Positions 3,261-34,086 of a DNA stretch of 37,696 bases are shown one piece after another (position 1 is the stretch's first letter; each line of letters starts with the position of its first letter). Location: positions 1 to 37,696 of the forward strand of contig JAJFHV010000015.1 of NCBI GenBank assembly GCA_021775415.1, read 5' to 3'. Source of the stretch: Hyphomicrobiales bacterium. Lineage in GTDB: Bacteria > Pseudomonadota > Alphaproteobacteria > Rhizobiales > Rhizobiaceae. The notes under the pieces are model-generated. The model saw nothing but the letters and a program-made list of their open reading frames with translations. It made no database searches and was not told the origin of the DNA. The translations under genes were made by a program, and so were the position numbers.

Positions 3261-3843
3261 ATCGGTGCAATTATCCCGTTACAGGACCCTGTTGGTGACG
3301 GCTTTAATCTGGCTAGGTCCGGTTGTTGGTCCGTATAATGTACAGGCCGCAGAATGGGCAATGGATGCTGCCCGCAGCAAGCTGGAGTTCACTGTCCAAC
3401 TGCAATCCAATCCACTCAAGGGCGCATTTGAAACGTTTCAGGTAGAAATAGACTTTGATCCAGACGATCCATCATCGGGGGTTCTCGATGTCTTGGTAGA
3501 AACCGGATCAATTTCAACCGGGGACAGCCAAAGCAAAACGCTGGCCGAAACTGCAGAGTGGCTGGGTAGCGGTAACTTTCCTGTCGCACGTTTTCATTCA
3601 ACCTCTATCAAGAGCGTTGGTTCAGGCAAGTTCGAGGCAGCAGGATTGTTGACGATCAAGGAGGCCAGCATGCCAATCAATCTTGAATTTACGCTTGAGA
3701 TTGACGGCACCGAAGCCGTTGCCCAAGGCTCAGCCACAATCAACAGGTCTGAGTTTGGTGTGGGAGGTCTGTTCAGCGACAGCCTGCCAGTCCAAGACTT
3801 TGTTATTATTGAATTTGTTGTTCACGCAAGCAATCGCAGCTAG
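3247..3843 (+). CDS. YceI-family periplasmic protein (second paralog)
   Basis: This exported protein is 198 residues from the ATG at 3247; a TTG at 3238 is a possible but less likely start. A signal peptide ends near VQA, residue 34. The YceI domain follows, with KLEFTVQLQSNPLKGAFETF, LGSGNFPVARFHSTSIKSV, LTIKEASMPINLEFTLEI and the closing ATINRSEFGVGGLFSD. It differs clearly from the first YceI: the mature start WAMDAARSKLEFTV lacks the usual H-T-x-V-x-F-x-x-x-H pattern. It overlaps the end of the cytochrome b561 gene by 14 bp and is the last gene of the AraC - cytochrome b561 - YceI operon. A palindromic repeat sits directly after its stop. Confidence 0.9.
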   Translation: MRSSRSVQLSRYRTLLVTALIWLGPVVGPYNVQAAEWAMDAARSKLEFTVQLQSNPLKGAFETFQVEIDFDPDDPSSGVLDVLVETGSISTGDSQSKTLAETAEWLGSGNFPVARFHSTSIKSVGSGKFEAAGLLTIKEASMPINLEFTLEIDGTEAVAQGSATINRSEFGVGGLFSDSLPVQDFVIIEFVVHASNRS

Positions 3844-3869
3844 GTCCATTTGTGACCCAAAGCGGACAT
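3843..3869. repeat. Short palindromic intergenic repeat, copy 2
   Basis: This repeat starts with the last base of the YceI stop codon. It reads GGTCCATTTGTGACCC then AAAGCGGACAT. On the opposite strand it is nearly the same as copy 1 (ATGTCCGCT arm, then GG(T)CACAAA in the centre). It lies between two convergent genes and could serve as a transcript-end hairpin. Confidence 0.6.
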
Positions 3870-3891
3870 TGCTATCGGTCTAACCGGTAAA

Positions 3892-4638
3892 TCAGAGGAT
3901 TTGACTCAGGAACTCTTTGGTTCTGGGATCTTTGGCATTATCGAAGAAATTAGTTGGTGGCCCGTGCTCAACAATCACGCCGCGATCTGTAAAATAAATG
4001 TGGTCAGCAACTTCTCTCGCAAAACCCATTTCATGGGTAACAAGAATGCAAGTCATTCCCTCATCTGCCAGATCCTTGATCGTGAGCAAAACCTCATTGA
4101 CGGTTTCAGGATCCAAAGCAGCCGTTACCTCGTCGAACAGGATTACATCCGGTTTCATTGCAAGGGAGCGGGCAATAGCCACCCGCTGTTGCTGCCCTCC
4201 CGAGAGCTCTCCTGGATAGCTGTCTTCTTTACCCTCAAGGCGAACCTTTCTAATTAACGCGCGAGCCGTTTTTTCCACCTCATCCTTATCCTGTTTAAGA
4301 ACGCGAATGGGTGCCATCATGACATTCTCAAGTGCAGTCTTGTGGGGAAACAAATTGTATTGTTGGAATACCATTCCAACTTTTTTGCGCAGCTCCAGCT
4401 TATCGAGCTTGCTGTCATTGACTTCCTGACCTTCCACCAGGATCGAGCCCTCTTGGATGTCGTTCAAAGCGTTGATGCATCGAATAAGAGTTGATTTTCC
4501 AGACCCCGAAGGGCCAATGATACAAATCACCTCCCCCTTCATCACATCAAGCGAAACCCCTTTGAGCACTTCAAGTGCACCAAACGACTTGTGGACGTTC
4601 TTGATGGAAACCATAGGTTGGGAATCATTCCAGCTCAT
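3892..4638 (-). CDS. Polar amino acid ABC transporter, ATP-binding protein (GlnQ/HisP-like)
   Basis: This 248-residue cytoplasmic ATPase powers the importer encoded just upstream. Visible motifs are Walker A GPSGSGKST (residues 42-50), the Q-loop at Q92-Q93, signature LSGGQQQR (145-152), Walker B VILFDE (165-170), D-loop ALDPE and the switch histidine H202. Walker B continues FDEVTAALDPE, with Val where many GlnQ-type ATPases have Pro; this is a common variant. Length and sequence are typical of the polar amino acid uptake (PAAT) family. It follows the second permease by 10 bp and is the last gene of a four-gene operon. Confidence 0.95.
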   Translation of the reverse strand: MSWNDSQPMVSIKNVHKSFGALEVLKGVSLDVMKGEVICIIGPSGSGKSTLIRCINALNDIQEGSILVEGQEVNDSKLDKLELRKKVGMVFQQYNLFPHKTALENVMMAPIRVLKQDKDEVEKTARALIRKVRLEGKEDSYPGELSGGQQQRVAIARSLAMKPDVILFDEVTAALDPETVNEVLLTIKDLADEGMTCILVTHEMGFAREVADHIYFTDRGVIVEHGPPTNFFDNAKDPRTKEFLSQIL

Positions 4639-4648
4639 AGCGAACCCT

Positions 4649-5497
4649 TTAGTTTATGACCGCAAATTTCTTTTCCAGATAAACAGTCCATCGCGCGATC
4701 GGATAACAGTAGATAAAAAACAACAGAAGAACGAAGGAGTAAAAAGGAGCCAGCAACTCCGGACGCCCACCCTCAGCGGCTAGGGCCTGACCAGTTAGGG
4801 TCATGACTTCAGATACCCCAACAATGGATGCCAGTACCGTTGCCATAGTCAAAATGGAATAGAGGTTCATCCATGGCGGCAACATCCGTTTCACGCATTG
4901 AGGCAGAATAACCAGCCACAGTGTTTGCCGCCGTGTGTAGGCCAGGCTCTCCGCTGCCTCCCATTGACCGCTTGGCAATGATGTAACCGCACCGCGTACA
5001 ATCTCGGAAACATTAGCCATCACCGGAAGTGACAACCCAATAATTGCCTTGAGCCAATCCGGCAACGGGATTGCAAAAATGCCAAGCCTTAATTCGAACG
5101 GCAGCAAGAACATCGCAAAAAACAAAAGCACCAACCATGGCGAGTTGCGGAAAAACTGGGTCAGCCCCCATGCCAATTTCCTCACCCACCCATTGAGCGA
5201 AATTTGGCCCAGCCCGAGCGCAGCACCAACCACCGTACCTATGGCCATCGCACAAACCGAGATGACAAGGTTGAAAATAAAACCCTGCAACAAAAGCGGC
5301 ATCCAGCGAACCAGCGTCTCAAGGGAAGAGGTCTGGACCGTGTCGCTCTGCGCATAACCAAGCCTTGACGAAAAAATACAAAACCCGACAATCACCAATC
5401 CATGCCACGGCTTCAGGCGAAAATTAAAACCTTCCCCGGTCTTCGCGGTAACTGGCAACATCACCGGTAAGTCGGTTTGAAATTCCTGTTTCTTCAT
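4649..5497 (-). CDS. Polar amino acid ABC transporter permease (second permease)
   Basis: This is a 282-residue inner-membrane permease. The start at 5497 gives an ATGA overlap (5494-5497) with the upstream permease; a longer frame upstream is out of keeping with that coupling. The core carries five or so helices with the HisM/GlnP signature RNSPWLVLLFFAMF and the EAA coupling loop EAAESLAYTRRQTLWLVILPQC. Before the core there are about 60 extra residues with another hydrophobic stretch (HGLVIVGFCIFSSRLGYAQS), which could be an added membrane helix or signal anchor. It pairs with the permease at 5494-6240 to form the heterodimeric channel. The substrate is not predictable from sequence. Confidence 0.92.
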   Translation of the reverse strand: MKKQEFQTDLPVMLPVTAKTGEGFNFRLKPWHGLVIVGFCIFSSRLGYAQSDTVQTSSLETLVRWMPLLLQGFIFNLVISVCAMAIGTVVGAALGLGQISLNGWVRKLAWGLTQFFRNSPWLVLLFFAMFLLPFELRLGIFAIPLPDWLKAIIGLSLPVMANVSEIVRGAVTSLPSGQWEAAESLAYTRRQTLWLVILPQCVKRMLPPWMNLYSILTMATVLASIVGVSEVMTLTGQALAAEGGRPELLAPFYSFVLLLFFIYCYPIARWTVYLEKKFAVIN

Positions 5498-6240: not shown

Positions 6241-6281
6241 CTACAACACCCCCTCCTCAAGTCACCGCCAATAGAATAGAA

Positions 6282-6310
6282 GGCGGGAGATGCTTTTTGC
6301 AAATCCCGCC
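6282..6310 (-). terminator. Intercistronic hairpin between binding-protein and permease genes
   Basis: GGCGGGA at 6282-6288 pairs with TCCCGCC at 6304-6310. An inner TGC/GCA stem lies around a TTTTT loop. It lies 18 bases past the binding-protein stop codon and before the permease start. Such hairpins often block 3' decay or partly terminate transcription, giving more binding protein than permease. There is no U-run behind it on the transcribed strand, so partial termination or RNA stabilisation is more likely than full termination. Confidence 0.6.
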
Positions 6311-6328
6311 GTCTAATTTGTCTAATGC

Positions 6329-7141
6329 TTATTTGTATTTTTCATGCATTGCCTGTGCGAATGGTGTATTTGCAACACCCCATTTTGTTTCCAACTCCAG
6401 GATGCGACCTGACTTGTGCCATTCGGTGATCACTTCACCCATCATGTTATGGAAGTTGGTTTCCCCAAGCTGCACGGCAAGTCCCCAAGGTGCATCATCG
6501 ATGGTTGGCAGCGGCATTTCATAGCCCTCCCAAGCCGGATCCTTGGTTTTGGCCACAATCGCTGAATCGTCATAAACGAATGCCACGCAGTTTCCGGCCT
6601 GCAAAGCAGCATACGCTTCTGCGGTACCCTTAAACGCAACAATTTCTGCACCAAACTCCTGTCCGGTTTTCTTGTTGTAGAAAGCGCCCTGGATTCCACA
6701 AACCGGTTTTCCGCGCAAGTCTTCCCATTGCTTGAACCCGTATTTTGCAGGAGCCAAAACATTGGTTCCAGATGAGTAATAGTTGGGATCAACAATTGAA
6801 ACGACTTTCCGGCGATCCGGCTTGTCGGTCATTGTCGCAATCATCAGATCAATCTTACCCTGCTCCAAAAACTGCATGCGGTTTGAACTGACGACAGGAA
6901 CATACTCGACTTTCACACCAAGCTTATCCGCCACATCTTTTGCCAAATCCGGTTCAATACCAATGATGGCCCCTGACGGATCACGATATCCATACGGTTT
7001 GTAATCGGCTTTCACCCCAACCTTCAACACTCCGGCTGCTTTGACATCATCAATCACATCGGCCTGTGCCACGTGAGCTGCAATAGTAAATGCACACAAC
7101 GCGCTGGCACCCAAAAGGCCTTTAACAATTTTCCCGATCAT
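6329..7141 (-). CDS. ABC transporter periplasmic amino-acid-type binding protein
   Basis: This 270-residue exported protein is the first gene of the importer operon. The signal peptide ends after VAQA at residue 27. The mature protein has the family-3 solute-binding fold: VLKVGVKADYKPYGYRDPSGAIIGIEPDLAKDVADKLG, then QGKIDLMIATMTDKPDRRKVV, then the GTAEAYAALQAGNCVAFVYDDS segment of lobe 2. The Arg in DRRKVV corresponds to the residue that usually holds the ligand carboxylate, which fits an amino acid or similar substrate. The ribosome binding site is GGAGA before the ATG. The exact ligand cannot be read from sequence. Confidence 0.94.
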   Translation of the reverse strand: MIGKIVKGLLGASALCAFTIAAHVAQADVIDDVKAAGVLKVGVKADYKPYGYRDPSGAIIGIEPDLAKDVADKLGVKVEYVPVVSSNRMQFLEQGKIDLMIATMTDKPDRRKVVSIVDPNYYSSGTNVLAPAKYGFKQWEDLRGKPVCGIQGAFYNKKTGQEFGAEIVAFKGTAEAYAALQAGNCVAFVYDDSAIVAKTKDPAWEGYEMPLPTIDDAPWGLAVQLGETNFHNMMGEVITEWHKSGRILELETKWGVANTPFAQAMHEKYK

Positions 7142-7267
7142 TTCGATATTTCTCCATGTTGATCCGCTAATCTACAAAGCCTTCGAGAACGGCGGTCATT
7201 CATCTCTCGAACGTTACCCGCACAAAATCACACCAAAATACGCCTATTTTCGGTATGAGCTAGTCGA

Positions 7268-7298
7268 ATAGTAAACTTCGCTTGCTTGAGGGAGTCAA
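7268..7298 (-). promoter_or_regulatory. Possible promoter for the ABC importer operon
   Basis: Read on the minus strand, TTGACT (7293-7298) is followed after 19 bases by TACTAT (7268-7273), about 130 bases before the binding-protein start. The -35 is good, the -10 is moderate and the spacing is longer than ideal, so this is tentative. Confidence 0.3.
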
Positions 7299-7367
7299 CG
7301 CGTATCGCTGGTTGGAGAGGTTTGCAGAATTTGCCGCAGTTGATGCCGCGTACACAACTCGTTCAAA

Positions 7368-24650: not shown

Positions 24651-27600
24651 ATGAACCAGGAGGTCATGAATCTCTTCAATAATCCAGCCCAGTCGCAAAA
24701 CTTCGATTCCATTCGGATTTCGATAGCAGCGCCTGAGAAAATCCTGTCCTGGTCGTTCGGCGAAATCAAAAAGCCGGAGACCATCAACTACCGGACATTC
24801 AAACCGGAACGTGACGGATTGTTCTGTGCTCGAATCTTTGGCCCGATCAAGGATTACGAATGCCTGTGCGGTAAATACAAGCGGATGAAATACAAGGGTA
24901 TTATCTGCGAAAAATGCGGCGTGGAAGTAACACTTTCACGGGTCCGTCGTGAGCGCATGGGTCATATTGATCTGGCAGCTCCCGTTGCTCATATCTGGTT
25001 CCTGAAATCCCTGCCATCGCGCATCGGATTGCTGCTTGATATGACGCTCAAGGATCTTGAGCGTATTTTGTACTTCGAAAATTTTGTAGTGACAGAGCCC
25101 GGTCTGACACCTTTGACCGAGTATCAGCTTCTGTCTGAAGAAGAATACATGAATGCAGTCGACGAGTTCGGTGAAGATTCCTTCACCGCGATGATCGGCG
25201 CTGAAGCCATTCACGATATTCTGGCGGCCATGGACCTTGATAAAGCGGCTGGCCAGTTGCGTACGGATTTGGCTGAAACCTCATCGGAGCTCAAATCCAA
25301 GAAACTCTCCAAGCGCTTGAAAGTGGTTGAAGCATTCATCGAGTCCGGCAACCGTCCAGAGTGGATGATCTTGAAAACCATTCCGGTCATACCACCGGAC
25401 CTGCGTCCGTTGGTTCCGCTGGATGGCGGTCGTTTTGCGACTTCAGACCTCAACGACCTTTACCGCCGGGTGATCAACCGCAACAATCGACTTCGTCGTT
25501 TGATGGAGTTGCGTGCGCCTGACATCATTATCCGCAACGAAAAGCGGATGCTGCAGGAGTCTGTGGATGCGTTGTTCGACAATGGCCGTCGTGGCCGCAC
25601 AATCACCGGTGCAAACAAGCGTCCGTTGAAATCACTGTCAGACATGCTCAAGGGCAAGCAGGGCCGTTTCCGTCAGAACTTGCTCGGAAAACGCGTCGAT
25701 TATTCCGGTCGTTCGGTCATTGTGACAGGCCCGGAATTGATGCTTCACCAATGTGGCTTGCCGAAGAAAATGGCTCTGGAATTGTTCAAGCCGTTCATCT
25801 ATTCGCGACTTGATGCAAAGGGGTATTCCTCAACCGTCAAACAGGCGAAAAAGCTGGTTGAAAAAGAAAAGCCGGAAGTTTGGGATATCCTCGATGAGGT
25901 TATCCGTGAGCATCCGGTTCTCTTGAACCGCGCTCCGACGCTTCACCGTCTTGGTATTCAGGCGTTCGAACCGGTGCTGATTGAAGGTAAGGCTATCCAG
26001 CTCCATCCTTTGGTTTGCGCTGCATTTAATGCTGACTTTGACGGCGACCAAATGGCGGTACACGTACCCCTGTCGCTTGAAGCCCAGCTTGAAGCCCGCG
26101 TGTTGATGATGTCCACCAACAACATTTTGCACCCGGCGAATGGCCAACCGATCATCGTTCCCTCACAGGACATGGTTTTGGGATTGTATTATTTGTCTAT
26201 CGTGGCTGAGAACGAGCCGGGTGAAGGCATGGCATTCTCCGACATGGGTGAACTGCGCCATGCGATTGATAACGGCATTGTAACACTTCATACCAAAATT
26301 CGCGGCCGCTTCACGGCCATGGAAGAGGATGAAAAACTTGTTTCGGCTGTGTATGAAACTACTCCGGGCCGCATGATCCTTGGTGAGCTTTTGCCGAAAC
26401 ACCCGAAGATCGGGTTCGAAATCTGCAACACCGAGATGACCAAGAAAAACATCTCCAAGATGATTGATACGGTCTATCGCCATTCCGGGCAAAAAGAGAC
26501 GGTTATCTTCTGTGACCAGATTATGCAGCTTGGCTTCGGTCATGCCTGCCGTGCCGGTATTTCATTCGGCAAGGACGACATGGTTATTCCGGAAACCAAG
26601 GCTGATCTCGTAAAACAGACTCAGGCGCTAACCAAAGAATACGAGCAACAATACAATGATGGTCTGATCACCCAGGGTGAAAAGTACAACAAGGTTGTTG
26701 ATGCCTGGGCAAAGTGCGGAGACAAGGTTGCCGACGAAATGATGGCCCGTATTAAGGCCGTCAAGTTTGACGAGGAAACCAAGCGCCAGTTGCCGATGAA
26801 CTCAATTCACATGATGAGCCATTCGGGAGCACGTGGTTCTCCAACCCAGATGAAGCAGCTTGCAGGTATGCGTGGTCTTATGGCCAAGCCATCCGGCGAG
26901 ATCATTGAAAGCCCGATCATCTCGAACTTTAAAGAAGGCCTGACTGTTCTTGAGTACTTCAACTCAACCCACGGTGCACGTAAAGGTCTTGCAGATACGG
27001 CGCTTAAAACAGCGAACTCTGGTTATCTGACCCGTCGTCTTGTTGATGTTGCTCAGGATTGCATCGTCAATGAAGAAGACTGTGGTTCGGAAAATGGCCT
27101 CACCATGCAGGCTGTCGTGGACGCCGGCCAGGTGGTGGCAACGCTTGGCATGCGTATTCTTGGTCGCACAACAGCAGAAAAAGTTGTGCACCCTGAAACC
27201 GGTGACAAGATTGTTGGTCAAAACCACCTGATCACTGAGCCCGATGTGGACGCAATCGAGGGAGCCGGTGTCAAAACCATTTTGATCCGTTCAGCACTTA
27301 CCTGTGAAACTCAAAACGGTATCTGTGGCGCCTGTTATGGTCGTGACCTTGCACGCGGAACCCCAGTCAACATGGGTGAAGCGGTTGGAGTTATTGCCGC
27401 GCAGTCGATTGGTGAGCCGGGTACCCAGCTTACCATGCGTACCTTCCACATTGGTGGTACAGCACAGGTGGTGGATAGCTCGTTCCTTGAGGCTTCCTAC
27501 GAAGGCACCGTCAAGATCCGCAACAGGAATGTTGCCAAGGATTCCGATGGTCGCAACATCGTTATGGGCCGCAACATGGCCGTGATCATTGAGGATGAAA

Positions 27601-28865
27601 AAGGCGTCGAACGTGCTTCGCACCGCATCAACTACGGTTCCAGACTGTTGGTGGATGAGGGCGATACGATTAAGCAAAGCCAGCGTATGGCAGAATGGGA
27701 CCCTTATACACGTCCCATGATGTCGGAAGTTGGCGGCACGGTTGAGTTTGAAGATGTGGTGGATGGACTGTCTGTGCAGGAGTCTGCGGATGAATCAACC
27801 GGTATCACAAAGCGTGTAGTTGTGGATTGGCGTGCCAATCCGCGCGGCGCGGATCTCAAGCCGGCAATCGTCATCAAGGACAAGAAGGGTGAAATCGCTA
27901 AACAAAAACGTGGTGGTGAAGCCCGTATCCAGCTTTCTGTGGATGCGATCCTCTCGGTTGAGCCCGGTCAGGAAATTGCGGCAGGTGACGTACTTGCGCG
28001 TATCCCGACTGAAAGTGCAAAAACCAAGGACATCACCGGTGGTTTGCCGCGAGTGGCTGAATTGTTCGAAGCACGCAAGCCGAAGGATCATGCGGTAATT
28101 GCCGAGATCGACGGAATTATCCGCTTCGGTCGCGACTACAAAAACAAACGCCGCATTGCGATTGAGCCAATCGACTCAACAGTAGAACAGGTCGAATATC
28201 TCATTCCGAAAGGCAAGCCATTCCATTTGCAGGATGGCGACCCGATCGAAAAGGGCGACTATATCCTCGACGGAAATCCTGCTCCGCATGATATCCTGGC
28301 CATCCGTGGTGTTGAGGCTTTGGCCAACTATCTCGTTAACGAGATCCAGGAGGTCTATCGCTTGCAGGGTGTGGTAATCAACGACAAGCATATCGAGGTG
28401 ATTGTTCGCCAGATGTTGCAGAAGGTCGAGATCACCGATCCAGGCGAAACTGGCCTAATCGAAGGCGAACAGATGGATCGCATCGAGATGGATATCTTGA
28501 ACGAGCGGATGGCAGATGAAGGCAAAAAGCCGGCTTCTGGTAATCCGGTTCTGCTGGGTATCACCAAGGCAAGCCTGCAAACCCGTTCATTCATCTCGGC
28601 TGCTTCCTTCCAGGAAACAACCCGGGTGCTGACCGAAGCTTCCGTTGCCGGCAAGTCCGACACGCTCGAAGGCTTGAAAGAGAACGTGATTGTGGGTCGT
28701 CTTATCCCGGCTGGTACCGGCGGTGTGATGTCGAAAATCCGTCACCTTGCCAACAGCCGCGACGATCTCATTGTTGATGAGAAACGTAAACTTGCAGACG
28801 CGCAGGCAGCACTTACAGACATGAGTTCTGAAGGCGAGGAAGCCGCTCCGGAACCTGCTGAGTAG
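24651..28865 (+). CDS. rpoC: DNA-directed RNA polymerase subunit beta'
   Basis: This 1404-residue subunit carries the catalytic Mg site [12 protein letters not shown], with Asp462, Asp464 and Asp466. The N-terminal zinc-binding site uses C71, C73, C86 and C89 ([20 protein letters not shown]). The second zinc cluster includes [16 protein letters not shown]. The rudder/lid region ([20 protein letters not shown]), bridge-helix region ([25 protein letters not shown]) and trigger loop ([25 protein letters not shown]) are intact. AAGGAGA precedes the start. Transcription ends at the bidirectional terminator at 28896. Confidence 0.99.
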
Positions 28866-28891
28866 GGTAGGGTTCCAGCTAGAAAAATTTA

Positions 28892-29824
28892 TCAAGGGCT
28901 GCCATTTCGGCGGCCCTTTTTATTTGTCTCGAGCAGGTGATTGCGCATCCATTCACAAAAAATGGTCGTCTGAGGGTCGCTACGTTCGGCTGGCACCACA
29001 GTGTAGTAGGACCACGGGTGCTGTATTTCTTCTTCAAACAGGCGGACCAGTCTTCCTTCCAGGATATCAATCTCGGCCAATTCAACGTAGCCCATTGCGA
29101 CACCTAAACCATCAATGGCTGCCTGTAGTGAAAGCCCCGGGTCATGAAATGAAAGCCCGCGTCTGGTATCGACATCTTTGGTACCGGTCGCAGCCAACCA
29201 TTCACCCCATTCAGAATCGATTCCGGTCTCTGGGCTTACATCAGCATGCAGCAGGGTGAAATCCCGCAGCATATCAGGTGTTCGAGGTGGCTCTCTTCCT
29301 TCCAGGATTCGGGGGCTACACATCGGCGTTAAATGGATAGGCATAAGAAGTTCTGCATTGAGATTTTGCCAGTGGCCCTTGCCAGCTCGCACGCCCACAC
29401 TCAGTCCGTGCTGATTTAATTTGGCAAGAGACAAGGAGGTTTGTAACTGAACTTCAATTTCCGGATGAGAGTTTCTGAAATCTGACAGTCTGGGAATCAA
29501 CCATTTGTTGGCGAAAGATGGCGTAACGGTAACTTTCAGCGGCGTGGATGCATCACTGGCCCTAAGAGCTGCCAAAGTTGTCGAAATCTGATCGAATGAA
29601 GATTCAAGGACTGGAAACAAATCCCGACCAGCGGCGGTCAAATAGACACGCCGGTTTTGCCGCAGAAAGAGCTCAACGCCGAGAGATTTTTCCAAACCGC
29701 TAATGTGGTGGCTGACAGTCGAATGCGTAACGTTCAGCTCCTTCGCAGCCAGACTGAAACTGGAAAGCCGCGCAGCACACTCAAACGCTCGCAGGGCATT
29801 TAGATGTAAGCCGAAATGGCGCAT
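28892..29824 (-). CDS. LysR-family transcriptional regulator (GcvA-like)
   Basis: This 310-residue regulator has an N-terminal winged helix-turn-helix (LNALRAFECAARLSSFSLAAKELNVTHSTVSHHISGLEKSLGVELFLRQNRRVYLT, residues about 8-65). A periplasmic-binding-fold effector domain (residues about 90-300) follows with PLKVTVTPSFANKWLIPRLSDFRNSHPEIEVQLQTS. It diverges from the Rieske oxygenase operon across 122 bp that carries dyad elements, the usual layout for a LysR regulator activating its neighbour. Its last codons lie inside the rpoC terminator hairpin. The effector is unknown. Confidence 0.94.
   Translation of the reverse strand: MRHFGLHLNALRAFECAARLSSFSLAAKELNVTHSTVSHHISGLEKSLGVELFLRQNRRVYLTAAGRDLFPVLESSFDQISTTLAALRASDASTPLKVTVTPSFANKWLIPRLSDFRNSHPEIEVQLQTSLSLAKLNQHGLSVGVRAGKGHWQNLNAELLMPIHLTPMCSPRILEGREPPRTPDMLRDFTLLHADVSPETGIDSEWGEWLAATGTKDVDTRRGLSFHDPGLSLQAAIDGLGVAMGYVELAEIDILEGRLVRLFEEEIQHPWSYYTVVPAERSDPQTTIFCEWMRNHLLETNKKGRRNGSP
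28896..28921. terminator. Bidirectional intrinsic terminator shared by rpoC and the LysR gene
   Basis: GGGC-T-GCC (28896-28903) pairs with GGC-G-GCCC (28909-28916) around ATTTC, with one G-U pair. On the plus strand it is followed by TTTTTATTT, ending the rpoBC transcript. On the minus strand it is followed by TTGATAAATTTTT, serving the LysR transcript. The hairpin lies inside the coding sequence of the LysR gene and encodes its last residues, GRRNGSP. Confidence 0.75.
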
Positions 29825-29827
29825 TGT

Positions 29828-29879
29828 TTGAACTCATCTGTCGAATTTTTCTACATATTATGTTCAATCTATCAGATTG
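29828..29879. promoter_or_regulatory. Candidate LysR operator in the divergent promoter region
   Basis: TTGAAC (29828-29833) and GTTCAA (29862-29867) are inverted with a 28-base spacer. A 15-bp perfect dyad CAATCT-ATC-AGATTG lies at 29865-29879. LysR proteins bind such 15-bp dyads between divergent genes, so this is the best candidate site. The -10/-35 boxes could not be fixed. Confidence 0.45.
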
Positions 29880-29946
29880 TCATTACGTATTGTTGTCTTC
29901 AGACTGTCCGGTGAGCAAGGCATGATCGTCAAACAATTGGACAGGC

Positions 29947-31119
29947 ATGATGAAAGCTGAAAATTCTATTTTTTCACCCGGGCAATATGACCGTACACGC
30001 GCTCCCATCGAGGAAGCGTATTCGCTTCCCCCCGATGTCTATACATCCCGGGAATGGTACGACCGTGAAATTGAGACAATCTTCCGGAAGAAATGGCTGC
30101 AAGCAACGCGCGAAGAGGAAATCCCTAATCCCGGCGATTATATTCGCATTGATATCGTCGGCGAGCCCCTGATCATCTTGCGGGATCTCAATGGAACGAT
30201 ACGCGCACTTTCCGCATCATGCAGACACCGTGGTTCGGAGCTGGTTGCCGGTAAAGGCAATTGCAAGCTGTTGAAATGTCCCTATCACGCCTGGAGTTAC
30301 ACATTGGAGGGTGAGCTGAAAGCCGCACCTTCAATGGAGGATGCAAAAGGTTTTGACAAATCGGACTACAGCTTGCCTTCGATCCGGGCCGAGACCTGGG
30401 GAGGTTTTGTATTCATCAATTTTGATCAATCTGCCATCTCCCTGATTGAAAGCCTGGGTGATCTTCCCGAGCGGTTTGAGCGTTATGATCTAAAAAACAT
30501 GAAGGTTACAAAAAAGTGGGAAAACCGGTTCAACGCCAACTGGAAAATCTGGGTCGAAAATTCACGTGAGGGATACCACGTAAGAACGGTTCATCGAGAA
30601 TCGCTGGACACTTATTACCCCGGCGCCACAAACAGCAAATTTTTTGCCAAGGGTATGGACGGTGTCTATGAGATCAACAGCAGCGACAACGAAAACGGCC
30701 TCTACGTTCCGCGCAACAAGACATTGCCTTTTGTTGAGGGAATATCAGACGAAGACAAGGAACATACGCATTTCCTGATCTATTATCCGCATCTGCTGAT
30801 GAATATTCCACCTGATCGCATCACCTTTCATCAATATTTCCCTGAAGGGCCTGACTGGACCCGAATTGTCACCTGGTGTTGTTTTCCGCAATCGACCATC
30901 GACAGGGACGACTTTGAGGCTGAAGCAGAAGACAAATACTATCCACCAATGGAGTTGTTCATTGAAGAAGACAAAGGAATTTGTGAGCTTGTGCAACGCG
31001 GTATAATGGGCAGGATGGCCAAGTCCGGCCGATACTGCCCGACAGAAGAGCAAACCGTACACAAATTTGCCGGTTATGTGCTGGATCAGGTGTTGGGGCC
31101 AGCATCACAACCTGTATGA
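29947..31119 (+). CDS. Rieske-type aromatic-ring-hydroxylating / amine oxygenase, large subunit
   Basis: This 390-residue cytoplasmic oxygenase has a Rieske [2Fe-2S] domain using C92, H94, C111 and H114 (SCRHRGSELV, then KCPYHAWSYTLEGEL). The catalytic domain begins NWKIWVENSREGYHVRTVHRES, where H211 and H216, with probably D342 (EEDKGICELVQRG), hold the mononuclear iron. E208 sits where carnitine oxygenase CntA uses a bridging Glu instead of the usual Asp, suggesting a quaternary-amine or related substrate (inference). A second ATG at 29950 is an equally possible start. No reductase or ferredoxin gene lies nearby. It is the first gene of an operon with the Rid and phosphotriesterase-family genes. 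Confidence 0.93.
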   Translation: MMKAENSIFSPGQYDRTRAPIEEAYSLPPDVYTSREWYDREIETIFRKKWLQATREEEIPNPGDYIRIDIVGEPLIILRDLNGTIRALSASCRHRGSELVAGKGNCKLLKCPYHAWSYTLEGELKAAPSMEDAKGFDKSDYSLPSIRAETWGGFVFINFDQSAISLIESLGDLPERFERYDLKNMKVTKKWENRFNANWKIWVENSREGYHVRTVHRESLDTYYPGATNSKFFAKGMDGVYEINSSDNENGLYVPRNKTLPFVEGISDEDKEHTHFLIYYPHLLMNIPPDRITFHQYFPEGPDWTRIVTWCCFPQSTIDRDDFEAEAEDKYYPPMELFIEEDKGICELVQRGIMGRMAKSGRYCPTEEQTVHKFAGYVLDQVLGPASQPV

Positions 31120-31147
31120 ATTAGAGCGTGGAGTTGGGGAAGGTTAA

Positions 31148-31534
31148 ATGGTGAGACAGACAGTAACCGTGGATACGATCGGGGAGCCACCGGACAAGCG
31201 GATTGGGTCCCAATGCATAAAGTCAGGCAACCAGGTGTTTGTGTCCGGCCAGATTGCCTATCTGGATGGAACCCTCGTTGGAGCGGGTGATCCGCTCAAG
31301 CAATGCCGACAATGCTTGCGAAACATTCAGGCATTTGTCGAGAAAGCGGGTGGAACAATGGACAATGTTGTTTCACTCAACATTTTTTTGAGTGACATCA
31401 GGTTCCGCGAGGCATCGATGGAAGCACGGGCTGAATTTTTTAACGCTCCGGGGCCCAGTGCCACGGTGGTGGGTGGAGCGGATTTTGCATTTCCGGATTT
31501 GTTGGTTGAAATCAGCGCAATTGCAATTTTGTAG
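31148..31534 (+). CDS. Rid family protein (YjgF/UK114 fold) lacking RidA catalytic residues
   Basis: This 128-residue protein has the Rid trimer fold: GSQCIKSGNQVFVSGQIAYLDG, then GDPLKQCRQCLRNIQAFVEKAGGTMDNVVSLNIFLSDI, then EISAIAIL. True RidA deaminates reactive 2-aminoacrylate using an Arg in PARS near residue 105 plus a Tyr and a Glu. Here the matching stretch is GPSATVVG (Ala for Arg), the Tyr position of YSQA is Gly, and the EIEAIA Glu is Ser. It therefore belongs to a non-deaminase Rid subgroup, such as those found in catabolic operons. An excellent GGGGAAGG ribosome binding site lies 28 bp after the Rieske gene. Confidence 0.92.
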   Translation: MVRQTVTVDTIGEPPDKRIGSQCIKSGNQVFVSGQIAYLDGTLVGAGDPLKQCRQCLRNIQAFVEKAGGTMDNVVSLNIFLSDIRFREASMEARAEFFNAPGPSATVVGGADFAFPDLLVEISAIAIL

Positions 31535-31604
31535 TTTGCACTGAAGGCATGGAATTTACTGTTAAATTGGCGGCGAAGTTTATTAGTTGGAGGCGGGTAT
31601 AAAA

Positions 31605-32660
31605 ATGGCAAAGAGTAACAAGGTCGGCAAAGTACAGACCGTGCTTGGGTTGATCGATGGTGAGGAACTAGGTGTAACCCTTGCTCATGACCATGTTCTG
31701 ATTGATGGCACATTTATGTATATCGAGCCGGAGGCCATCAGTGATAAAAACCTCGCCCACCAAAAAATCAGCCTGCAGAATCGTGGGTGGGTTGGCTACA
31801 ACTGGACGTCCAACCGGGACAATGTTGAGTTAAAAGACGAGGAAATTGCGGTAACCGAACTTCGCCGCTTCATTGCGGCTGGCGGTAAATCCATCATTGA
31901 CCCGACCAATATAGGACTTGGACGTGATCCCAATGCGCTGGCCAGAATTTCCAGGCTAACCGGCATGAACGTGGTGATGGGTTCGGGGCACTATATCGGC
32001 TCTACCCATCCGGATGACATGAGTGATCGCAGTCAGGAATCAATCACCAGAGAAATTATCGAAGACATTGAAGTGGGTGTCGGCGAAAACAAAATTCCTG
32101 CAGGTTTGATTGGCGAAATCGGCAGCACTTACCCTTGGTGGGACAACGAAAAGAAGAGTCTGCGGGCTGCAGCCGACGCACAAATGGAAACCGGTGCCGC
32201 CCTGATGGTGCATCCAGGGCGTGATCCAAATTCACCGGTTGAAATACTTGAGGTCGTGGACAAGGCCGGTGGGGATCTGTCACGAACCATCATTTGTCAT
32301 ATCGACCGGACCAGTCTTGACCGAGCATGGCTCAAGCAACTGGCAGAAACCGGCTGCTATCTCGAGTACGACCTGTTTGGCAATGAAAGCTCTCACTATC
32401 CACCTAACCCAAGTGTGGATATGCCATCAGATGCGCAGAGGATGGATGTAATTTTGTGGCACTTCGAAAATGGGTATGAAAAGCAGATATTGCTCTCCCA
32501 TGATGTTGCGACCAAGCACCGCCTGCATGCGTATGGAGGACTTGGTTATGATCATCTGATCACCAATGTGGTCCCGCGCCTGCGCAAACGCGGTCTTTCC
32601 GAGGAACAGGTATCCACTTTGATCGTGGATAATCCGCGTGAAATTTACTCTTTTGTTTGA
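31605..32660 (+). CDS. Phosphotriesterase-family metal-dependent hydrolase
   Basis: This protein is 351 residues from the ATG at 31605, chosen for the GGAGGCGGG site; a TTG at 31587 would add six. It is a TIM-barrel amidohydrolase of the phosphotriesterase (PTE/PHP) branch. Metal ligands are H28 and H30 (LAHDHVLIDG), bridging E171 (LIGEIGSTYPW), H203 (MVHPG), H232 (ICHIDRTSLD) and D300 (LLSHDVATKHRLHAYGG). The bridge is a Glu as in E. coli PHP, not the carboxylated Lys of true phosphotriesterases. Relatives hydrolyse lactones, esters or related carbonyl compounds. It ends the Rieske-Rid operon and probably opens the ring or ester made there (inference). Confidence 0.92.
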   Translation: MAKSNKVGKVQTVLGLIDGEELGVTLAHDHVLIDGTFMYIEPEAISDKNLAHQKISLQNRGWVGYNWTSNRDNVELKDEEIAVTELRRFIAAGGKSIIDPTNIGLGRDPNALARISRLTGMNVVMGSGHYIGSTHPDDMSDRSQESITREIIEDIEVGVGENKIPAGLIGEIGSTYPWWDNEKKSLRAAADAQMETGAALMVHPGRDPNSPVEILEVVDKAGGDLSRTIICHIDRTSLDRAWLKQLAETGCYLEYDLFGNESSHYPPNPSVDMPSDAQRMDVILWHFENGYEKQILLSHDVATKHRLHAYGGLGYDHLITNVVPRLRKRGLSEEQVSTLIVDNPREIYSFV

Positions 32661-32695
32661 CCGGGAAACGAAGCTTTAACGGCACTCCGTTTTGG

Positions 32696-33094
32696 TCACT
32701 TCTCGCGATCCTTGATGTGATTTATCCCGTCGCCCACCGGGGCGGGTCCGTAGTCAAACGGGATCACATCATCGAGACAGGCGATGTTGAAGCTGAACTG
32801 GTTGGGATTGCTGCGCCGTTGATGGTGGGTATAGATACCGCAGGTTTTGCAGAAATAGTGTTTCGCGGTTTTGGTGCCCCACTGATACAGCGTCAGGTTT
32901 TCTTCACCCGATACGACTTTCAGTTTTTCAAGCGATACTGCACAAGCGTACGCGCTTCGGCGACGGCACATGGAGCAATTGCAGTGATGAACGCCATCCA
33001 GGCCATTTTCAAGCGTCACCTCGAACTCGACCGCACCACAATGACAACTTCCATGGCAGGTGCCTTCCGGCTCTTTCTTCGACGCATCATTCAT
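32696..33094 (-). CDS. GFA/CENP-V family zinc-binding protein
   Basis: This 132-residue protein has the glutathione-dependent formaldehyde-activating (GFA) fold. Zinc-type cysteines are C17 and C19 (GSCHCGAVEF), C38, C40 and C43 (HHCNCSMCRRRSAY), and C82 and C85 (HYFCKTCGIYTHH). The family name comes from an enzyme speeding S-hydroxymethylglutathione formation, but many members have no proven activity. If the nearby Rieske enzyme demethylates its substrate, formaldehyde release would give this gene a natural role (inference). It converges with the phosphotriesterase-family gene with a 35-bp gap. Confidence 0.92.
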   Translation of the reverse strand: MNDASKKEPEGTCHGSCHCGAVEFEVTLENGLDGVHHCNCSMCRRRSAYACAVSLEKLKVVSGEENLTLYQWGTKTAKHYFCKTCGIYTHHQRRSNPNQFSFNIACLDDVIPFDYGPAPVGDGINHIKDREK

Positions 33095-33169
33095 TGTGTT
33101 CGCGTTCCTTTCAAGGGTGTGTCTGTTTTGACCAAATGTCGCCCATATTTGTATGTTTAATCATCATTC

Positions 33170-33192
33170 CTTGACGTGTTGTATGCGTCAAG
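33170..33192. repeat. 7-bp inverted repeat between GFA and L,D-transpeptidase genes
   Basis: CTTGACG (33170-33176) and CGTCAAG (33186-33192) are separated by nine bases in the divergent promoter region. Read on the minus strand, the right arm gives TTGACG, then a 17-base spacer and AATGAT, a possible promoter for the GFA gene. The dyad may be an operator or a hairpin. Confidence 0.4.
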
Positions 33193-33295
33193 CAAACAAC
33201 ATTAGCTATCAGATGTCCGTTAACCTAAATTGTCAGGGTCATTTGCATTTTGCACTGGATTGCAGGACAATTACAGTTATGGGGCGACTGGAGAG

Positions 33296-33327
33296 CGCAG
33301 GCAACCTGATACTATGCAGGTTGTGCG
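33296..33327 (+). promoter_or_regulatory. 5' UTR hairpin upstream of the L,D-transpeptidase gene
   Basis: CGCA plus CAACCTG (33296-33308, with a GG bulge) pairs with CAGGTTG plus TGCG (33317-33327) around ATACTATG, an 11-bp stem ending 18 bases before the start codon. It could control translation or RNA stability of the transpeptidase message. Confidence 0.4.
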
Positions 33328-33345
33328 TCTCAACGAGGGTCGAAA

Positions 33346-34086
33346 ATGTTTGTATTGAGTAAAACTTCAGCAGTTCTGAAATTACCGGGTGGTTCCGGTT
33401 TGAAGCGCGCCTTGGCAAGTGCCGCGGCGATTTCTGCATTGATTCTGGTGTCGGCCTGTTCCAACACCACGCCAACTGCGGGACTTGCTTCAGCCATCAA
33501 CGAGCCATTGGAAGTTAATTACGCATTTGCCTATGCACCAATGGAAGATTCGGAAGTTGCATTGCCCGGATTTCAATACGAGAAGATGCGTAAACGGTAT
33601 CTGCGCCAAACCGTGGACTACCGGGGAGACCAAAAATCAGGCACCATCGTAATCGATACGACTGGACCATTCTTGTATCTGATCCAACCGGGTGGAAAGG
33701 CTCTGCGCTATGGAATTGCAGTGGGTCGCGAAGGATTTGAATGGGCCGGCGACGCACAGGTCAAGTGGAAGCAAAAATGGCCAACCTGGACACCGCCTGC
33801 TGAAATGATTGAAAGAAGCCCCAAACTGGCAGAGTTTGAGGATGGTATGCCGGCTGGCATTGAAAATCCCCTGGGTGCCCGTGCGTTGTATTTGTTCAAG
33901 GATGGCAAGGATACAATGTATCGAATCCACGGCACCAACCGGCCATTTTCAATCGGCAATAAGGCATCCAGTGGGTGTTTTCGGATGATCAATCAAGATG
34001 TGATCGACTTGTATGCGCGCGTTCAACCGGGAGCGAATGTTTTCGTTCGCCATGGGGTCCCAGACTTTTATGAGCGTGGTGTTTAA
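33346..34086 (+). CDS. L,D-transpeptidase (YkuD family) lipoprotein
   Basis: This 246-residue protein has a lipobox LVSAC with Cys38, so it is probably a membrane-anchored lipoprotein. The YkuD catalytic domain (residues about 97-240) has GTIVIDTTGPFLYLIQPGGKALRYGIAVG and the active-site block YRIHGTNRPFSIGNKASSGCFRM, with H195, C211 and R213. Such enzymes form 3-3 peptidoglycan cross-links or attach outer-membrane proteins to meso-diaminopimelate in the periplasm; members of this group are abundant in rhizobia. It stands alone between the catabolic block and the str operon. Confidence 0.94.
   Translation: MFVLSKTSAVLKLPGGSGLKRALASAAAISALILVSACSNTTPTAGLASAINEPLEVNYAFAYAPMEDSEVALPGFQYEKMRKRYLRQTVDYRGDQKSGTIVIDTTGPFLYLIQPGGKALRYGIAVGREGFEWAGDAQVKWKQKWPTWTPPAEMIERSPKLAEFEDGMPAGIENPLGARALYLFKDGKDTMYRIHGTNRPFSIGNKASSGCFRMINQDVIDLYARVQPGANVFVRHGVPDFYERGV

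Follow-up and report, generated by a model that had tools for sequence, protein, structure and literature searches.

A conserved, apparently mobile Rieske–Rid–PTE gene cassette and its possible role in the catabolism of a small nitrogen compound

A three-gene cassette encoding a Rieske non-heme iron oxygenase, a Rid-family protein and a hydrolase of the PTE family lies, divergent from a LysR-type regulator gene, in a 37,696-nucleotide stretch of DNA (the window; contig JAJFHV010000015.1) from a Hyphomicrobiales bacterium whose genome assembly (GCA_021775415.1) comprises 3.46 Mb in 23 contigs. The co-occurrence of these three genes in other genomes is far beyond chance and shows that they form one unit. 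The cassette is real, conserved and apparently mobile, and its unity and regulation are well supported. We propose, at a probability of about 0.4, that it spread horizontally and serves the catabolism of a small zwitterionic nitrogen compound, probably a betaine-like one; the chemistry would follow from the kinship of the encoded families and is held just as tentatively. The features of the cassette are:

28892..29824, reverse strand: LysR-type regulator, GcvA-like subfamily (Pfam, NCBIfam NF008352), with the enzyme genes divergent from it
29836..29879, no strand: operator-like element in the LysR–Rieske intergenic stretch (alignment of 10 loci)
29947..31119, forward strand: Rieske non-heme iron oxygenase, alpha subunit (Pfam Rieske and Ring_hydroxyl_A; relative CntA 6y9c)
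31148..31534, forward strand: Rid-family protein, strongly conserved except for the missing RidA arginine (Pfam Ribonuc_L-PSP; predicted fold)
31605..32660, forward strand: PTER-like binuclear metal hydrolase, PTE family (Pfam PTE; relative 9efa; ligand residues)

A conserved and rare gene unit

The first-pass annotation of the window had placed three tightly spaced enzyme genes of these families beside a divergent LysR gene, and both the coordinates and the families hold. All four reading frames are intact and are separated by gaps of 122 bp (LysR–Rieske), 28 bp (Rieske–Rid) and 70 bp (Rid–PTE), the hydrolase most likely starting at ATG 31605 and not at TTG 31587, as judged by aligned starts. 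Pfam assigned Ring_hydroxyl_A (1.3e-33) and Rieske (2.2e-19) to the oxygenase, Ribonuc_L-PSP (4e-23) to the Rid protein, PTE (8.3e-75) to the hydrolase, and HTH_1 and LysR_substrate (1.4e-28) to the regulator, which also scored 297.7 bits against the NCBIfam model NF008352 (GcvA subfamily; cut-off 288).

Conserved co-occurrence in other genomes had been set beforehand as the check that could overturn the annotation, and the annotation withstood it. With the hydrolase as query against named genomes we obtained 23 related loci, 22 of them in metagenome-assembled genomes (MAGs), with hydrolases 61–84% identical to that of the window; the 84% ortholog (G038/L010) is the same protein as that of L039 and was counted once. 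These loci belong to Alphaproteobacteria (a Hyphomicrobiales MAG, a Paracoccaceae MAG, Roseovarius and one other), Gammaproteobacteria (two Cocleimonas, Woeseia, Arenicella and two others), 11 Actinomycetota (mostly Acidimicrobiales), one Planctomycetota MAG and one unassigned bacterium. At 20 of the 23, spanning proteobacterial and acidimicrobial genomes and the Planctomycetota MAG, the Rieske, Rid and PTE genes stand in the same order on the same strand, and the Rid gene directly follows the Rieske gene in all 20 complete loci. The three exceptions are L052, which has the Rid and PTE genes while a Rieske piece ends a different contig, L043, whose contig begins with the PTE gene, and L059, where a PTE gene stands alone (6246-7304) with no Rid gene in the locus and no Rieske match at E 1e-100 genome-wide. 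The N-terminal part of the L059 hydrolase is unalignable and its metal histidines H28 and H30 are lost, so that L059 is perhaps a broken or misassembled copy. Exactly one Rieske protein was matched at E 1e-100 in 22 of the 24 cassette genomes (the 23 plus the source), the genomes of L043 and L059 being the exceptions.

The cassette is rare. In draws from two whole classes, 1 genome of 296 and 1 of 369 had the Rieske protein at E 1e-150, the seed in both cases. At E 1e-100 the hydrolase was matched in one genome, once more the seed, of 295 from the Roseovarius family, and in none of a sample of 100 further genomes from the source family, where more distant PTE-family proteins do exist. At E 1e-60, PTE-family matches occur in 129 plasmid records. 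One of these, with a 74% match, is a plasmid of Roseovarius pelagicus HL-MP18 (NZ_CP106737; locus L093), and no other plasmid matched the Rieske protein at that limit. Its record states Arctic seawater, and that many of the other loci are marine was read from isolate names. Four viral contig stretches matched a pattern, and none of them was a PTE relative. In the PTE tree the Planctomycetota copy (L049) groups with an Acidimicrobiales copy (L053) at support 100/99, a pairing that transfer and misbinning would produce indistinguishably.

Regulation is tied to the unit in part of its range. LysR orthologs (54–66% identical) stand divergent from the Rieske gene in 8 of the 23 loci, all proteobacterial, and the R. 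pelagicus plasmid has a gene annotated gcvA in the same arrangement; the regulator expected by the first-pass annotation is thus part of the unit only in proteobacterial copies (these 8, the window and the one plasmid). An element of ~44 bp in the LysR–Rieske intergenic stretch is common to 10 loci, window included, from both proteobacterial classes. We searched for its pattern, at no more than 3 mismatches and with the reversed pattern as control, in the 12 proteobacterial and unassigned genomes among the 24: nine gave one match each (29838-29868 in the window), the reversed control gave 0, and the site precedes the cassette in eight of the nine. The three genomes without the pattern lack a LysR ortholog next to the cassette; in one, that of L043, a contig end cuts the locus. 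Conserved joint occurrence and gene order, divergence of the three genes in step with one another (pairwise protein distances, r 0.76–0.83, p 0.0001, over 20 loci and the window) and an operator-like element shared with the LysR gene together bear out the earlier view of a single functional unit.

Two points tell against that conclusion. Host kinship alone would also yield some of the distance correlation, and in genome G393 the sole operator match lies on another contig and not before the cassette, whose own element is too diverged for the pattern. The match stands there between a LysR paralog, 75% identical to the cassette LysR of the same genome, and a PhyH plus Rieske pair, so that regulator and element seem to serve a second oxygenase operon in that genome. 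This second locus (L103; G393 contig C102, 5055-7584) holds the LysR paralog, the operator, the PhyH-family dioxygenase and a second Rieske gene cut by the contig end; a further Rieske gene at 3794-4939 has a nearly identical start and encodes a protein 35% identical to the window Rieske protein.

Active sites of the three enzymes

In the oxygenase the Rieske ligands (C92, H94, C111, H114), the residues of the 2-His-1-carboxylate iron site (H211, H216, D342) and the bridging E208, which aligns with CntA E205, are invariant in 21 orthologs. The closest solved relatives are the carnitine monooxygenase CntA (6y9c), then 3n0q and 3vca, the last of which we take to be Stc2. Kinship with group V (CntA, GbcA, Stc2) is seen in the rank of CntA, in the common bridging glutamate and in GbcA as the best NCBIfam model (174 bits, cut-off 670), whereas the cassette protein departs from that group in aligning well mainly over its N-terminal 200 residues and in having no reductase gene alongside. 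By its closest kin the enzyme would act as a monooxygenase near nitrogen, although the residue by which group V enzymes are told apart differs (see below). A structure model with a mean predicted local distance difference test score (pLDDT) of 62.7, and below 50 at residues 204-221 and 223-289, was set aside.

The lack of a nearby reductase, remarked on in the first-pass annotation, stands for the families scanned: the source genome encodes two FAD_binding_6 proteins, a 276-residue protein taken as a ferredoxin reductase and a PNPOx fusion, neither on the cassette contig, and no reductase of that family was found among 40 neighbour proteins picked at the 23 related loci, for closeness to the cassette, from several hundred open reading frames, the scan covering these proteins and this one reductase family. 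Eighteen Rieske-domain matches against two FAD_binding_6 proteins in the source genome suggest that oxygenases may share electron donors, and the cassette oxygenase probably draws on the general cellular supply. Elsewhere in the source genome, locus L117 (G000, contig C5, 3256-10904) encodes two Rieske proteins, a glutamine-synthetase-like protein, an alpha/beta hydrolase and a protein that is, at 39%, the nearest homolog in this genome to the D-2-hydroxyacid dehydrogenase discussed below.

The Rid protein had been called degenerate, and that word is wrong. The equivalent of RidA R105 is Ala or Gly in all 22 sequences, and yet 44 of 128 residues, including C23, R87, R94 and E121, are invariant in these 22 orthologs across phyla, which implies strong selection; E121 falls at the position of the glutamate conserved in Rid proteins. 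According to Niehaus et al. (PMC4433059) the RidA arginine is required for imine hydrolysis, ~10% of RidA proteins carry serine in its place, and the arginine-less subfamilies Rid4–Rid7 are called mysterious, their roles unknown. Without this arginine 'imine handling' is not a safe assignment for the cassette protein; our guess is that R94 or R87 might take over the acid-binding role. The predicted model (pLDDT 95.8) has the Rid fold, and a Foldseek comparison with the PDB gave query TM-scores (template modelling scores) of about 0.76–0.89 over the best 50 rows. RutC, RidA (6l8p) and AmnE are the closest folds, with E-values within a factor of three of one another, so that the modelled fold would not choose among them. 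This likeness, and the place of the gene within an apparently catabolic operon, contrasts with an identity of only 26–30% to these proteins and with the missing RidA arginine.

The loss of the catalytic arginine would also fit a Rid protein that is a trimeric scaffold, chaperone or redox-sensing partner of the oxygenase and not a pathway enzyme. The unbroken adjacency of the Rid gene to the Rieske gene and the lack of a reductase or ferredoxin gene in the cassette would suit such a partner, and RidA proteins can be holdases, according to PMC12117332. The invariance of E121 and several other residues across phyla is what an active site would show, and we rate the scaffold as the least probable of the alternatives weighed here.

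The hydrolase carries the most specific residue pattern. Its best solved relative, over the full length, is 9efa ('phosphotriesterase-related protein'), with which it has the D..TKH motif in common. The metal ligands H28, H30, E171, H203, H232 and D300 correspond to H26, H28, E169, H201, H230 and D298 of mouse PTER, and R206 and R235, invariant in 24 sequences, to the PTER substrate arginines R204 and R233, the mapping being made through 9efa motifs and a constant offset of 2 and not through an alignment of mouse PTER itself. Both arginines are also kept in 10 other bacterial PTE-family proteins of the order. N-acetyltaurine and N-acetyl-beta-alanine are both substrates of PTER (PMC11374699, PMC13311154). 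In the tree the cassette hydrolases form a clade of their own (26 rows, support 100/99), distinct from the 28 further PTE-family members of the order that were compared. Its sister group contains 9efa with 10 of the order's bacterial proteins, and 18 of the 28, of the 3k2g type, stand apart from both. None of the 28 has a Rieske or Rid relative within ~1.5 kb.

A PTER-like hydrolase favours amide cleavage over a lactone or an ester, two of the three targets (lactone, lactam or ester) suggested earlier, and our best guess, from the residue pattern, is that the substrate may be an amide of an acid-bearing amine. Were the Rieske and Rid-assisted steps instead to give a hydroxy acid lactone, the PTE protein could open it: the family includes lactonases, and the NCBIfam models PhFuoseLconase (68 bits, cut-off 630) and OPH (66.9 bits, cut-off 500) do match, though far below their cut-offs. 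Both the nearest solved structure and the residue pattern point to 9efa and PTER, and the lactone or ester route appears unlikely, less so than the scaffold. The NCBIfam model for phosphotriesterase-related proteins gave 136 bits (cut-off 486). A phosphotriester or phosphonate substrate was considered and rejected, no phosphorus gene having been noticed among the scanned neighbour proteins.

Neighbouring genes and a candidate pathway

Genes beside the cassette at other loci offer hints about substrate and products. An OpuABC-type transporter lies between the Rid and PTE genes in L039 and downstream in L046, and in L059 an OpuAC gene lies at a distance of ~6.5 kb; a family 5 binding protein (SBP5) is encoded between Rid and PTE in L048 and on plasmid L093, and further downstream in L045. 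A betaine-like substrate is the one favoured by some of these transporters, as far as protein families can indicate, and no support for an aromatic acid was found in the cassette analysis. Orthologous D-2-hydroxyacid dehydrogenase genes (56–66%) follow PTE in L043, L047, L048, L058 and plasmid L093, a tartronate-semialdehyde-type reductase is encoded near L058 and L048 and on the plasmid, and a class III aminotransferase lies downstream in L050–L052. These enzymes hint that the products include a C2–C3 oxo acid and a small amine. A histidinol dehydrogenase beside L044, above the HisD domain cut-off, was taken as the host's own hisD and rejected as a cassette part. On plasmid L093 (20590-32197) the cassette adjoins ectoine/hydroxyectoine transport genes annotated ehuA, ehuC and ehuD, and other genes beside it presumably belong to ectoine catabolism.

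We hypothesize that LysR would sense the compound or a product and turn the operon on, after which the Rieske enzyme, with electrons from a general ferredoxin/reductase, would hydroxylate the carbon adjacent to nitrogen. The Rid protein would resolve a labile carbinolamine, imine or enamine through an anchor other than the RidA arginine, and the PTER-like enzyme would cut an N-acyl (amide) bond while R206 and R235 hold the acid group of the intermediate. Where present, the D-2-hydroxyacid dehydrogenase and the tartronate-semialdehyde-type reductase could reduce the released C2–C3 oxo acid, or the class III aminotransferase could handle the released amine. The order of the three core steps could also be reversed, with deacylation first. 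The sequence of oxidation, C–N intermediate and hydrolysis foreseen in the first-pass annotation is therefore still possible, minus a safe role for the Rid protein in imine handling. The fuller proposal, that an undescribed pathway shared horizontally across at least two phyla employs a new Rieske subgroup, a Rid protein with a rebuilt site and a PTER-type amidase to degrade a common marine osmolyte-like compound, is more doubtful than the general one.

An N-heterocyclic betaine (homarine, trigonelline or similar) could be handled by the same enzymes in another way, the Rieske enzyme dihydroxylating or opening the ring, the Rid protein deaminating an enamine and the PTER-like enzyme removing an N-formyl or N-acyl remnant. 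The folds closest to the Rid model include RutC and the deaminase AmnE, albeit with RidA 6l8p between them at a nearly equal E-value, and a ring-opened pyridinium could give an N-acyl enamino acid near the N-acyl beta-amino acids of PTER. Among the scanned neighbour proteins we found no product of a ring-cleavage or methylglutamate gene. Homarine, named as a methylated marine nitrogen compound in a paper that cites its pathway, resembles the proposed substrate class and already has a published pathway. Its operon is reportedly homABCDER and is said to be widespread in Rhodobacterales, a distribution unlike that of the cassette, whose hydrolase was found in a single one of 295 Roseovarius-family genomes; this comparison is one of distributions and not gene by gene. 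We regard the heterocyclic route as improbable, if less so than the lactone or ester route.

Several observations weigh against a cassette for a betaine-like compound with an amide-cleaving last step. For the oxygenase, the CntA paper divides quaternary-amine Rieske enzymes by residue 203, Tyr/Phe in group Va or Asn in group Vb; this position is the invariant S206 in 21 cassette sequences, and with serine in place of the pi-cation tyrosine of CntA or the Vb asparagine, quaternary-amine binding is unproven. For the Rid protein, besides the absent imine-hydrolysis arginine, a Rid-family profile search places PH0854 first, RutC seventh and AmnE near the end of 31, and the fold search ranks RidA second, between RutC and AmnE. 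For the hydrolase, PTER H300 is replaced by an invariant alanine (A302) where 9efa has His, 9efa groups outside the cassette clade and joins other bacterial proteins, so that the cassette hydrolase is not shown to be PTER's closest bacterial kin, the tree carries flagged long branches, and the 1.5 kb neighbourhood control is weak because a true cassette copy (L010) shows no Rieske or Rid relative in that span either. As to the neighbours, OpuAC- or SBP5-type transporters occur in 5 of the 23 loci (L039, L045, L046, L048, L059) among the proteins scanned; the OpuAC proteins are mutually 24–26% identical, and hence probably recruited separately, and the SBP5 proteins 25%. A linked D-2-hydroxyacid dehydrogenase is present in only 4 of the 23 loci, and the best one of the source genome is 39% identical and located elsewhere.

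Genomic setting and significance

In the source genome the cassette sits between rpoC and a YkuD-type gene:

24651-28865: rpoC, upstream flank (name read from translation)
28866..33345, no strand: stretch without counterpart in the same-genus genome G306 (comparison with locus L085)
32696..33094, reverse strand: GFA-domain protein (Pfam GFA 2.5e-15), outside the conserved cassette
33346-34086: YkuD-type gene, then rpsL, rpsG and fusA (names read from translations)

In G306 rpoC, YkuD, rpsL and rpsG are contiguous and the cassette and GFA genes are absent (L085). Of 18 family genomes searched for rpsL we compared the stretches of eight, five of which contain both rpoC and rpsL while rpoC lies outside the stretch in the other three, and found no match at E 1e-4 to the LysR, Rieske, Rid, PTE or GFA proteins in any of them. 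The GC content and third-position GC content of the cassette genes are unremarkable against their surroundings, so composition gives no sign of insertion; the cassette would have been gained in the source genome, rather than lost elsewhere, because it is rare. The GFA gene was rejected as a formaldehyde step of the cassette since no match to it was found in any of the 23 related loci (E 1e-5); its protein scored 21.6 bits against the NCBIfam formaldehyde-enzyme model (cut-off 234.55).

The earlier remark that no named pathway contains this set agrees with the literature searched, mainly titles and the starts of abstracts and with most subscription journals outside its reach, in which no description of a Rieske, Rid and PTE set was found; nor was one found in the accessible parts of PMC10949508 and PMC12117332. 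As a compact linked gene set with its own regulator and operator-like element that is present in isolates, Roseovarius pelagicus HL-MP18 and Roseovarius sp. ZX-A-9, the cassette has a substrate that could be traced by simple induction and knock-out tests. Knowing it would attach a function to one Rid family that lacks the arginine and to a clade of PTER-like proteins from bacteria, and might open another path for marine dissolved organic nitrogen. If the proposal is true, the cassette would show bacteria employing, for catabolism, the chemistry of an animal N-acetyl-beta-amino-acid hydrolase.

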